21,163 nt of DNA from a virus, in the IMG/VR virus record IMGVR_UViG_3300027881_000104, positions 1-21,163 of that record; one strand, given 5' to 3'. Both the position numbers and the translations under genes were made by a program. Below, piece by piece: positions 7,007 to 14,019 of the stretch. Position 1 is the stretch's first letter, and every line of letters starts with the position of its first letter. The notes under the pieces were generated by a model. It saw only the letters and a list, made by a program, of their open reading frames with translations. It was not told where the DNA came from and did not search any database.

Positions 7007-7435
7007 ATGAATGAAATGAGAAAATTAATGGAAGCAGTTAGGCGAATTAATGAAGGCGCCGAAACAGCATATTACTTTGAACACTATCCGCATTACATGG
7101 GAACAAAGAATTCAAAATTTGCAACAGACATAAATTCAATTGACGAAATACACGATTTATATCTCGCCCAAAAAAAGATTGGCTTCGAGGACGACGGCTG
7201 GTATGACAAGGTCCAAGATATTGGAGACAACTATGCATTTGGTGATGTAATCCAGAATTGGCCGTCAATCCGTAGGCAGTTAGAAACAAAAGGTGTTTGG
7301 GCAGATCAGTGGGAAGAAGGATCCCACGGTATTTCGATGGACAGTATGCGTGATGCTGCACAAGAAGTAGCTCAAATCGAAGCAAAAATTAAGGCTGATG
7401 AGTTTGACGACGAAGATGAATTTGATAATTGGTAA
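7007..7435 (+). CDS. Putative capsid-directed late protein starting MNEMRKLME (142 aa)
   Basis: The start chosen is ATG at 7007, because the product then begins MNEMRKLMEAVRRI, an N-terminus shared with the genes at 7442 and 11437-14019. The upstream part of the frame has no such conservation and overlaps the terminator and promoter. The L-M-E triplet at residues 7-9 fits the (L/I)-x-E site cut by T4-type prohead protease after capsid-targeting peptides. The rest is an acidic alpha/beta-looking domain with many aromatics, ending in a run of Asp and Glu. No enzyme motif was recognised. No clear Shine-Dalgarno site is present. Confidence 0.75.
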   Translation: MNEMRKLMEAVRRINEGAETAYYFEHYPHYMGTKNSKFATDINSIDEIHDLYLAQKKIGFEDDGWYDKVQDIGDNYAFGDVIQNWPSIRRQLETKGVWADQWEEGSHGISMDSMRDAAQEVAQIEAKIKADEFDDEDEFDNW

Positions 7436-7441
7436 TATATT

Positions 7442-7936
7442 ATGAACGAAATGCGAAAACTAATGGAAGCTTTGAAACGTATTGACGAAGACGTAGTTGA
7501 CTTTCCAGGTATGAACAAAGAACCTGAGCAGGGCGATAGGATTTTAGAACCAGGTGAAGAAATTCCAGCAGGCGCAAAGCAAATAGATTTGACTTCTGCA
7601 TTTGGCTCAAGCGCAATGAACATTATTAGAGAAGTACTACCCAATCGTCGGTTCTTTGAAAAGCCATCTTATTGGGAAGACCTTGACAAACCAAAGCACA
7701 CCCTAACCGAACTTGAACTTCGCACATTGCAAGCAGGACTTGCACGAGCGGACATCACACTCCCAACATACTCCGCATACGATATTTTCGGCAACGGCAA
7801 GCCACAACATCCGATGGCTAATGCTGACCTTCCACAAGAGGACACATTTATTGTGGAAATGTATGACGGCACATCATATTTGTGTGACGGCACTGGTGCA
7901 AATACCTATATTAGAATGTGGATGGCAATCGTTTAA
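7442..7936 (+). CDS. Second MNEMRKLME protein (164 aa)
   Basis: It begins six bases after the previous stop and is in the same unit. The first nine residues are identical to those of the 7007 and 11437-14019 products, then diverge (EALKRIDEDVVDF). The remainder contains a Pro/Glu-rich linker (to about residue 45) and a C-terminal alpha/beta portion ending in a strand-rich EMYDGTSYLCDGTGANTY segment. The function of the body is unknown. The shared N-terminus suggests a common targeting or processing peptide. No Shine-Dalgarno site is obvious, so coupling to the upstream gene is likely. Confidence 0.8.
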   Translation: MNEMRKLMEALKRIDEDVVDFPGMNKEPEQGDRILEPGEEIPAGAKQIDLTSAFGSSAMNIIREVLPNRRFFEKPSYWEDLDKPKHTLTELELRTLQAGLARADITLPTYSAYDIFGNGKPQHPMANADLPQEDTFIVEMYDGTSYLCDGTGANTYIRMWMAIV

Positions 7937-11220: not shown

Positions 11221-11437
11221 ATACAGGCTCGACAGTAAAATGTTGAGCCTGTTCTTTTGAGAATGCTATAGTTGAATTCATAATCTTGAATTCAAGCGAT
11301 GTGCCAGCAGTACTAAGATGTGTTACAACAGCACCTTCGACAAATCCCATTGTCATTAGTCGCTGCACATGCGGATCGGTAGTGTTAACTGATGTTATAA
11401 CACCGTCTTGCTTTATGCCTAGCTCAGTAATACACAT
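11210..11437 (-). CDS. FeoA-like SH3-type domain protein (75 aa)
   Basis: A single small domain with the FeoA pattern: an N-terminal strand with a Gly (GIKQDGVITSV), then RLMTMGFVEGAVV (the R-L-x-x-x-G-x-x-x-G-x-x-V signature), LEFKIMNSTIAFSKEQAQHFTVEPV at the end. FeoA in bacteria is a small cytoplasmic partner of the FeoB ferrous-iron transporter; here no feoB is present, so the role is likely different, perhaps protein-protein or metal-dependent regulation. The start overlaps the 860-residue gene's stop as TAATG, so it is translationally coupled to a probable virion gene. The stop sits in the terminator hairpin. Confidence 0.75.
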   Translation of the reverse strand: MCITELGIKQDGVITSVNTTDPHVQRLMTMGFVEGAVVTHLSTAGTSLEFKIMNSTIAFSKEQAQHFTVEPVLSV

Positions 11438-14019
11438 TACATGAATGATGGTGTGAAGCGGGCTACTGTTCCCTTATCGGATGTACCTACATATGAAATG
11501 CCAAAGTTACCCATTGAATTGCCCTTCTTAGATGCTTTCACAACTTCTCTGAAATTATCATGGTCGTCGTCTGTAAAACGTTGACCGTCCTTGCGTTTAA
11601 TAGCAACAGGAAGTTCAACCTCAACGTCGTAATCTAGGTCACCCCAATCCTCAGCATCGACTCCGCCTATATCTGGCTTGCCTACAACCTCGGCCATATC
11701 ACGCCACACAACATTGTAGAAATCACTGTCGCGCAATTCATTAAGTATGCCCCACGCAATCCCATAGTCACCATCTTCGCCGTAACCGTCCTTGGAACCA
11801 TATGCACCATAAAAGTGAGGAGTATCATCGAAGCTTGCATAGAATTCATCTCTGTTCTTAGCTTTTGCTTTACCCTTTTGTCGTTTTGTACCACCTTGTC
11901 TGCGCCAATATTGATCCATTTCTTCGTCGTCTTGCTTCTTCAGAATTTCCTTTGTAGGCCAATCAAGTAGTTCACCAGTTTCTGGGTCAACTACATCGTG
12001 ACTTACATCATCATCTGGGCCTAGGTCTGCAAGGAATTTTCTTACATCCTCACTTGTTGCATTACCAACCAATTCAATATCACCACGTAGCTCAGGCGGA
12101 ACTTCAACTACTCGACCAACGCCCTCATGTATTCTGTCCTTACAATCAAGCATACTACGCAATTTAATTAGTTTAGCATATTTTTCAGCACCAATATCGC
12201 TAGGTTCGCGGTCTTGCAAGTAAACCTTCAATGAATCACAAAATGTTTCCATGTTGTCGCCGTGGTGTGTATATAGGTATGAGGCTGCGGCGGCCACACC
12301 ATTTTTATCTATCTCTTTAACAACCGTGTTCATTAGTTTGTCTGCCGCCCAGCTAAAAAATCCTTCGTTGACTTTGTCTGTTGTTCGGTATGCTTTCTTC
12401 ATACCCGCGTCACGCTTTGCCTTCCTAGCATCATATTTCTTCTTTTGTGCTTTTGTCATAGGCTTGTCTGGAGTTTGAATCGGTGAACGCCAAGCACTGA
12501 CTGATCGGTAGTCTTCTTCGATGCCTTCATCTGCAGGAATTCCTAGATGCTTCTCGGCTTGCTGCATAATGTCATCCCACTTGCCGCGTTCTTTTGCAAT
12601 AACAGGCAACACATATCGAATTTGCTCTGCGTATTCGCCCTCTGGCTCGTTCTTCAAATAAGTTTCAAGTGCATTAGCAATCGCATCACGACCTTTCTTG
12701 TCACCGTAACTTAGGTCAAACCCGATATTGTCTAGGCCTTCTTCATCAACTGCATTGGCTACTTTTTTAGCCATCATCCTTGCTGCCTTTGCACCAATCC
12801 AGTCTGCGGCCTTTCTATCTAAACGTTTCATCCAATCAGCAACATCTTCATCTACTTCGCCGCGCATACGTGCTGCATGTGCTTCGGCTTTCTGCTTCTT
12901 ACGAAATGCTTTACGTGCTTTACGATTTTTTGCTCCGCCGTCGTACATTGGGCTATCTGTGCCTGCGCCTCTACCCTTGTCTCTTTTCTTGTAATCCCAC
13001 TTGCCTTCTTCTATTTCTTCGTCCACATTCTGAACAATTGCATAGTGATCTACATTTCCTTGAATTTCAAGACCTTCTCTATTATCTACTTGTAAACCAA
13101 CATTCTTACTAAAGTTTTCATCTTGAAATACGATAGTTCCATCTATTGGATCTGCACTCTTAACAACACCTGACGCACCACCAATTCTAGAAATAACAGA
13201 CTTACCTTGTGCTAGTAAGCTTTTAACTTGTGCTGAAATTGGTTCTTCATCTGAGAAGCTAGGATCATGGTCATAGCGATGTTCGCGCTCATCTGATGGC
13301 GCTGTAAAATCATCTACCCAATCACTAAAAGTTTCTTCTAACTCTGGATTATATTTTCCGTCTGGACGATGAGTTGGATCGTATTGTAGCTCTATTTGGT
13401 CATGTGACCATTCGCTAAGATAAAGTGTTACTACGCCACCACTGTACAATTTAACTGTATACACGCCTTCTTTAGCGCCTACATCATTAAATTCCCAATC
13501 AGCCTCGATAACTTTGCCTGTCTCACCGCGATGTTCTCCACCTGTGATTTTTACTGACTGACCTTGCCACTTTTCAGTGTTATCTTCATACGGGCCAAGG
13601 TTTTTATCTTCTTCGCCTTCTTCAATACTTTCAAATGGATTGTCAAGCATAAAGTGATCGTCTGAGCCTTCTAGCGACATTGTATCAAGATTAAAAATCA
13701 TATCTACTTCATGGCCTGTGTCAGGATGCCACGCCATAACACTATATTGATTAGCTTTATCGCTTGGTTTGCCATATGCGCCTGGCTTATATCCTGGCAT
13801 AACTTTTGCCATATCAGCAACAATTTTTGCATGTATATCATCGGGTACAAGTGGCTCATCAAATTCATCACGCTCTTCGTCATCGTCTTCGTTAATGCCG
13901 TGCTGTTCGCCAATAGCAGTAATCTCATCCATCGTCATTTCATTTTCGACAGCAGAAGGTGGAGCCTTTCCAAACATGCCCTCTTCGACTGTTTCCATTA
14001 GCTTACGCATTTCGTTCAT
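11437..14019 (-). CDS. Large acidic multidomain protein, putative internal head polyprotein (860 aa)
   Basis: The start chosen is ATG at 14019, giving MNEMRKLMETVEEG, the N-terminus shared with the genes at 7007 and 7442, with AGGA upstream; the frame upstream of it is not conserved. Recognisable pieces in order: an acidic N-terminal part, a KOW-like strand-rich unit (GQSVKITGGEHRGETGKV), a second beta region around SVISRIGGASGVV, a very basic stretch (KNRKARKAFRKKQKAEAHAARMR), helical domains, another basic helix, and C-terminal acidic alpha/beta domains. The (I/L)-E-E triplets in SIEEG, ELEET, EIEEG and GIEED fall between these units and fit the prohead protease rule. This is inference; no enzyme motif is visible. 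A late-promoter-like element lies 29 bases upstream. Confidence 0.85.
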   Translation of the reverse strand: MNEMRKLMETVEEGMFGKAPPSAVENEMTMDEITAIGEQHGINEDDDEERDEFDEPLVPDDIHAKIVADMAKVMPGYKPGAYGKPSDKANQYSVMAWHPDTGHEVDMIFNLDTMSLEGSDDHFMLDNPFESIEEGEEDKNLGPYEDNTEKWQGQSVKITGGEHRGETGKVIEADWEFNDVGAKEGVYTVKLYSGGVVTLYLSEWSHDQIELQYDPTHRPDGKYNPELEETFSDWVDDFTAPSDEREHRYDHDPSFSDEEPISAQVKSLLAQGKSVISRIGGASGVVKSADPIDGTIVFQDENFSKNVGLQVDNREGLEIQGNVDHYAIVQNVDEEIEEGKWDYKKRDKGRGAGTDSPMYDGGAKNRKARKAFRKKQKAEAHAARMRGEVDEDVADWMKRLDRKAADWIGAKAARMMAKKVANAVDEEGLDNIGFDLSYGDKKGRDAIANALETYLKNEPEGEYAEQIRYVLPVIAKERGKWDDIMQQAEKHLGIPADEGIEEDYRSVSAWRSPIQTPDKPMTKAQKKKYDARKAKRDAGMKKAYRTTDKVNEGFFSWAADKLMNTVVKEIDKNGVAAAASYLYTHHGDNMETFCDSLKVYLQDREPSDIGAEKYAKLIKLRSMLDCKDRIHEGVGRVVEVPPELRGDIELVGNATSEDVRKFLADLGPDDDVSHDVVDPETGELLDWPTKEILKKQDDEEMDQYWRRQGGTKRQKGKAKAKNRDEFYASFDDTPHFYGAYGSKDGYGEDGDYGIAWGILNELRDSDFYNVVWRDMAEVVGKPDIGGVDAEDWGDLDYDVEVELPVAIKRKDGQRFTDDDHDNFREVVKASKKGNSMGNFGISYVGTSDKGTVARFTPSFM

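Follow-up and report, generated by a model that had tools for sequence, protein, structure and literature searches.

We investigated a protein N-terminus, MNEMRKLME, that opens three genes in a 21,163-base virus record of IMG/VR (IMGVR_UViG_3300027881_000104, a fragment; the whole stretch is hereafter called the window). We found that this start, in the form MN[E/D][M/I]RKL[M/I/L]E, opens all 39 clusters of tagged IMG/VR proteins, which are mutually dissimilar downstream by BLAST, and we consider it likely that this common N-terminus serves as a propeptide for capsid targeting, as in phage T4. What would be new is a further step: the jumbo phages of this clade may package polyproteins that carry one tag and exchangeable modules and are cut by the prohead protease at (I/L/V)xE joints, a proposal to which we give about an even chance. 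Judging from their sequences, two products of the window, a protein of 860 amino acids (aa) and that of open reading frame (ORF) 3-1715, may be such packaged polyproteins.

The closest relatives of the window UvsX are those of the jumbo T4-like phages Phosso (62%) and Atu_ph07 (61%), followed by CBB, GAP32, XbC2 and others (58-60%); gp32- and UvsW-like genes are also present (Pfam; the UvsW_N domain lies below its cut-off). The original prediction held that three products are identical over nine residues and then diverge. The identical start was borne out: it is exact at 7007, 7442 and 14019, and a degenerate DNA pattern encoding the nine residues matched the window three times, at the same three places when up to three mismatches were allowed, and never in 100 shuffles. 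Four of the nine codons (N, R, K and L) differ among the three 27-mers while the amino acids are unchanged; conservation thus lies in the peptide. The claimed divergence holds further downstream, where the proteins are unrelated, but not directly after residue 9: the proteins starting at 7007 and 7442 still align at 81% over residues 1-16, with no alignment beyond (BLAST), because both carry E-A-(V/L)-x-R-I-(N/D)-E. Residue 10 is A or T in all three. A second predicted site (a slash marks the cut hereafter) falls at residue 16 in these two proteins and at residue 13 (VEE/G) in the 860-aa protein. A second site at residue 16 is likely, and it goes beyond the original prediction, as does the apparent modular make-up of the 860-aa protein. 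Pfam returned nothing for the 142- and 164-aa proteins, and their PHROG matches all had E > 0.03; structure prediction of the 7007 protein was uninformative (mean predicted local distance difference test, pLDDT, 44).

The original prediction also called for a search for further tag starts, which found exactly three in the window and many more in IMG/VR viral contigs. The exact pattern gave 35 stretches, and the wider pattern MN[E/D][hydrophobic]RKL[hydrophobic]E gave 74 stretches on 63 contigs, three of which yielded only frames of at most 21 aa. Including the window, there were 102 tag sites, and the 97 with frames of at least 40 aa were counted; five tag matches whose frames fell short of 40 aa (a locus end truncates two of these) and five bacterial matches were left out. 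Compared by the sequence after residue 18 (BLAST E 1e-3), the 97 frames formed the 39 clusters, among which the representatives L121 and L126 look atypical and were retained. Eight tag starts each occur on contigs G019 and G020, and five, with up to three mismatches, on G010. The pattern read backward had no match in 18 records and none in Atu_ph07 or Phosso; in a set of 19 records it matched G023 once and CBB twice. A Shine-Dalgarno-like triplet precedes 36 of the 39 representatives, compared with 21.8% of the 7,355 ATGs that these loci contain.

Residues M/I4, L7 and E9 are present in all 39 clusters; since the search pattern largely fixed positions 1-9, conservation there is partly selection by the search. 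Constraint is, however, also evident outside the pattern: residue 10 is A, S or T in 35 of the 39 (background 0.18), residue 11 is V, I or L in 32 (background 0.18), and 17 have [ILV]xE at residues 14-16, compared with 0.67 on average further along. Conversely, the 27-mer DNA is identical in just 7 of 741 representative pairs, with a mean difference of 4.3 nucleotides (nt). Peptide constraint together with DNA divergence is explained by selection on a peptide of ~16 residues, and not by a copied DNA cassette. Chance was rejected, given the empty shuffles and the constraint at residues 10-16. A bacterial origin was also considered, but the five matches in genome_contigs are one recurring 24-codon frame (Aedoeadaptatus, Olegusella and Peptoniphilus) and were set aside as chance. 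Pfam and PHROGs named almost no function for the proteins carrying the tag, assigning only 11 and 13 families, respectively, to the 39 representatives at E 0.01, with one member each. PADLOC defence labels (three weak families, each with one member of the 39) are not believed. Separately, a tagged 761-aa protein (L110, 359-2641) has a peptidoglycan-binding domain and is a candidate entry or lysis cargo.

A T4-type prohead protease of family S77 was found in tag-bearing records G001, G020, G021, G023 and G024, that is, in 5 of the 35 records searched (the window and the tag records), many of which are fragments. The capsid proteins of these five have predicted sites LQE/S (G001), LTE/S (G020 and G021), LRE/S (G023) and LSE/A (G024), all but that of G001 located by eye, and those of Phosso and Atu_ph07 have LME/T and LME/N. 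The LxE of the G001, CBB, Phosso and Atu_ph07 capsid proteins aligns with FLTE/A of T4 gp23, which we take to be the T4 maturation site. These predictions are in keeping with the earlier claim that L-M-E fits the (L/I)-x-E rule of the T4 prohead protease gp21: a small residue follows it, as in the predicted capsid-protein sites of these relatives. The RaK2 capsid protein migrates slightly under its predicted mass, and its authors, in the part of the paper available, consider cleavage (PMC3622015). Short gp23-like frames in G003 and G004 were rejected as full capsid genes; such frames were also among the matches in G006 and G013.

The virion proteome of Pectobacterium phage CBB offers a possible tie to particles. 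CBB_214, the sole RKLME start found in bases 1-360000 of the 378,379 of CBB, begins MSNLRKLMESIDDIYEA and is among 55 CBB virion proteins identified by mass spectrometry, as listed in the available part of PMC5259590. It has matches in 27 phage records, including two of CBB itself and one of the related jumbo phage Sharanji (recorded host, E. coli K-12 MG1655); in each of the six homologues inspected, down to the most distant at ~34% identity, an S or A comes after (L/I)xE close to residue 10. In G021, two tag-like genes (MHEMRTLME and MNDMRKLIE) sit downstream of homologues of CBB_201, 204, 205, 207, 208, 209 and 210; the gene after them looks, by eye, like a large terminase. In L124 a weak match to CBB_210 (E 1e-4) precedes the tagged gene, and in G023 a CBB_216 match lies 5 kb from the tags.

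Late-promoter-like motifs accompany the tag as well. GATAAATAC occurs just twice in the window, ahead of both tagged units (0.2 expected; two or more in 2 of 100 shuffles), and GATAAATA was found within 120 nt upstream of 6 of 38 representatives, against 0.54 expected, so most tagged genes have none nearby. Ahead of structural genes in CBB and GAP32 the late motif is reported as ATAAATA (PMC5259590, available text); this shorter form occurs eight times in the window, so only the longer motif is telling. Of the readings considered, a common tag for capsid targeting and processing is the best supported, if indirectly: by its many unrelated carriers, the small residue after L-M-E, the S77 protease in five records, morphogenesis neighbours in 3 of the 14 stretches compared, late-promoter-like motifs and CBB_214.

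The 860-aa protein is a mosaic, with segments matching L016, L003, L026, L028, L033 and L109 in varying contexts. A Pfam scan gave only sub-threshold KOW-like matches and no embedded peptidase domain. The KOW-like module is preceded by IEE/GEEDKN in the window, LEE/GEEDKN in L016, LDE/GDEDKN in L003 and IEE/AEEDTW in L026, and it ends with LEE in all four. A GYFSR-type module sits after the second site of the tag itself in L026 (QIEE/GYFSRL), after an internal site in L028 (KIDE/GYFSRM) and after a variant tag in L183 (KIEE/GFFSEL). Before the count, boundaries within 12 aa of each other were pooled, and alignments shorter than ~45 aa excluded. In ten modular proteins taken together, [ILV]xE[GASTDN] lay within 10 aa of 28 of the 63 boundaries, against 12.0 expected (none of 5,000 circular shifts was as high; such P-values are too good because relatives share boundaries); for the first eight proteins alone the count was 23 of 46 against 9.1. 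Replacing Glu by Asp gave 3 of 63 against 7.4, and sites whose third residue before the cut (P3) is not I, L, V or M gave 35 of 63 against 32.1 (P 0.25). Module scans of the viral contigs located the C-terminal module in 9 loci, the KOW module in 3 and the zinc module in 5, partly on contigs already in the set. Structure prediction of the C-terminal module was uninformative (mean pLDDT 50). A tblastn search of phages with the 860-aa protein gave no match at 0.01; likewise, no DNA match was found between window positions 6500-14500 and phages (megablast) or between 6893-14100 and plasmids.

ORF 3-1715 is 43-45% identical to L217 (2414-4726), the N-terminal part of which is related to CBB_276 (E 6e-24), a protein on the CBB virion list (PMC5259590, available part). 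Compared directly, ORF 3-1715 and CBB_276 gave no significant match, and both precede gp32- and UvsX-like genes. BLAST places the boundaries of the zinc-ribbon-like module against L183 at residues 331 and 391, and the predicted sites are at 331 and 392. The module order differs between relatives: in the window, EGEKCIRC...QVNE comes before ADRTLA...EVDE, whereas in L217 ADRTLA...EIDE comes before AEGEKCIRC...QVNE, and the joints VNE/A and VDE/A or IDE/A are retained despite the reordering. Exchangeable polyprotein segments would be expected to look like this, as units that trade positions and are flanked by cutting sites.

Table 1. Tagged genes, modules, predicted cutting sites and late-promoter-like motifs in the window.
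Feature	Position	Strand	Remarks
Tagged protein 1, 142 aa, acidic (isoelectric point 4.4)	7007..7435	+	Tag codons 7007-7033; second site INE/G, end 7054 (residue 16)
Tagged protein 2, 164 aa, acidic (isoelectric point 4.6)	7442..7936	+	Tag codons 7442-7468; second site IDE/D, end 7489 (residue 16)
Tagged protein 3, 860 aa, modular	11437..14019	-	Tag codons 13993-14019
KOW-containing module, residues 135-229	13333..13617	-	SIEE/G before, PELEE at end; reused in L016, L003 and L026; Pfam KOW below cut-off
Predicted site EIEE/G, residue 338	13006..13008	-	Exactly on alignment boundary against L028
Predicted site GIEE/D, residue 502	12514..12516	-	5 aa off alignment boundary against L016
Predicted site RIHE/G, residue 632	12124..12126	-	Ahead of conserved C-terminal module
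C-terminal module, residues 655-860	11440..12057	-	46-58% identity in L016, L028, L026 and L109
ORF open at 5' end, 570 aa, zinc-ribbon-like modules	3..1715	+	Related to L217; own start and any tag beyond window
Zinc-ribbon-like module	996..1178	+	Bounded by QVNE/A and EVDE/A; 66-68% identity in L183; other position in L217
GATAAATAC, late-promoter-like	6932..6940	+	First base 75 nt before 7007 start
GATAAATAC, late-promoter-like	14048..14056	-	First base 37 nt before 14019 start

If the shared N-terminus is a propeptide, then late in infection this amphipathic stretch (hydrophobic at positions 4, 7/8, 11 and 14) would bind the prohead core, so that its carrier enters the head. There the S77 prohead protease would cut after L-M-E9 and/or (I/L)-x-E16, and the mature cargo would stay with the DNA, from where its ejection into the host would be possible. 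In the 860-aa protein and ORF 3-1715, the same protease may cut further (I/L/V)xE joints and free small modules.

Several observations weigh against a packaged, cleaved propeptide. The detection of CBB_214 consisted of one unique peptide at 15.4% coverage (PMC5259590, available part). Among 62 virion proteins of phAPEC6, the available part of PMC7247149 includes gp265c (an ATPase) and gp267c (36 kDa) and has no ~14-kDa entry between or beside them, where gene order led us to expect the CBB_214 homologue. Eleven of the 14 stretches, G001 and G020 included, had no match to CBB_201-217. Atu_ph07 and Phosso, the isolates nearest by UvsX, have only one and two matches to the tag, each with three mismatches. 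Neither an S77 protease nor a capsid protein was matched in the window, a 21-kb fragment, and the protease was not matched in 30 of the 35 records, most of them short but including G002 (217 kb) and G003, G004 and G022 (117-127 kb).

The shared N-terminus could instead stay uncleaved and serve for docking at, or localisation to, the tail, the neck or a compartment of the infected cell. The tagged genes of G021 do lie amid tail and head-completion genes, and the virion list that holds CBB_214 also has tail, neck and baseplate proteins (PMC5259590, available part). However, A, S or T after E9 and the frequent second (I/L)xE are required by a cleaved propeptide and not by a docking helix, and the predicted capsid-protein sites resemble the tag site, so we regard docking as improbable. 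Another alternative is that the 5' ends are a shared translation-start or recombination cassette whose peptide has no function. Although the eight neighbouring tagged genes in G020 resemble a cassette array and some pairs have similar upstream DNA, residues stay constant while codons vary, the constraint extends to residue 16, and CBB_214 relatives retain a tag-like start at 34-85% overall identity; we consider a cassette very improbable.

The polyprotein proposal faces a more serious rival, namely that each large tagged protein is of an ordinary multidomain kind with acidic linkers, in which (I/L/V)xE falls at joints by chance and cleavage is confined to the N-terminal tag. We would put the probability of this a little short of even. 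At the boundaries, the reversed motif was weakly enriched as well (17 of 63 against 11.1, P 0.02; 15 against 8.6, P 0.008, in the first eight proteins), so acidic linkers contribute to the enrichment; boundaries common to relatives are not independent, and bare [ILVM]xE is in weak excess in the 860-aa protein (21 against 15.4, P 0.07). Yet the forward motif exceeds its expectation far more than the reversed one, the Asp control and the sites with a non-hydrophobic P3 are not enriched, and ORF 3-1715 and L217 keep their joints while differing in module order.

In its sequence-level features, the tag probably belongs with the T4 capsid-targeting sequences (CTS). According to the available text of PMC9026906, the T4 CTS has 10 residues and uses positions 4 and 7 for targeting and positions 8 and 10 for processing. 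The present tag likewise takes up roughly the first ten residues of its carriers, with hydrophobic residues at positions 4 and 7 and, at its end, hydrophobic-x-E before a small residue; another likeness is the T4-type S77 protease of five tag-bearing records. It differs in its letters, its 39 carrier clusters, the frequent residue-16 site and its large modular carriers. In addition, its copies diverge synonymously, whereas T4 ipII and ipIII have MKTYQEFIAEA in common and are identical over their first 31 nt. In the giant phages SPN3US and phiKZ, too, the prohead protease cuts head proteins after glutamate, with several sites in each phiKZ propeptide (PMC9026906, available part). However, SPN3US requires AxE and its propeptides span 20-254 residues (PMC10052503, available part); P3 of the tag is L or I, not A. 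CBB resembles the window in the tag-like start of CBB_214 and in the tie of CBB_276 to ORF 3-1715 through L217, both being virion-listed (PMC5259590, available part), but it has a single RKLME start in bases 1-360000 and no array, and CBB_276 has 429 aa.

The polyvalent proteins of phages and conjugative elements, as described in the available part of PMC5512222, are likewise multidomain, predicted to be packaged and injected, and likened by their authors to polyproteins. Their release is thought to proceed via their own peptidase domains, whereas the 860-aa protein has no Pfam-visible peptidase and has head-protease-like sites at its joints. Polyvalent proteins combine disparate enzymatic domains in one polypeptide; the modules of the 860-aa protein were recognised by reuse, and Pfam labelled only the KOW-like one. 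A literature search covering titles and abstract openings found neither this tag nor packaged polyproteins cut by a head protease. If the readings hold, much of what uncultured giant phages carry in their heads would be listable from the first 16 residues, by sequence alone, giving candidate early-acting proteins for phages that have never been grown. In the modular proteins, bacterial viruses would have their own counterpart of polyproteins, freed by the capsid protease, in which modules could be shuffled, added and reordered with targeting and release intact.

Some further features stand beside these results. The homologues of virion protein CBB_210 in L178 (G021, record positions 27017-27529) and L124 (1457-2149) begin MKSFTEYLTE/S and MKLKDYLSE/S, which are T4-CTS-like; a second tag type may coexist with the MNEMRKLME type. 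In G001, a 539-aa protein (L174, 162595-164214), nucleotidyltransferase-like by eye (no Pfam match at 0.001), ends EELRKLAGI directly before a tagged gene; (M/L)xLAG stretches similar to this end also occur in CBB_213 and in ORF 3-1715 of the window. Elsewhere in the window, a SET-domain protein is encoded at 8445-8834 (Pfam E 1e-15), and a DUF4326 protein at 8831-9085 overlaps the end of its gene. A sigma-70-type promoter that is a perfect match with TG lies at 7966-7994, just past the tagged pair 7007/7442, and near-perfect ones lie at 8966 and 9824 (23 sites in the scan against 17 expected).

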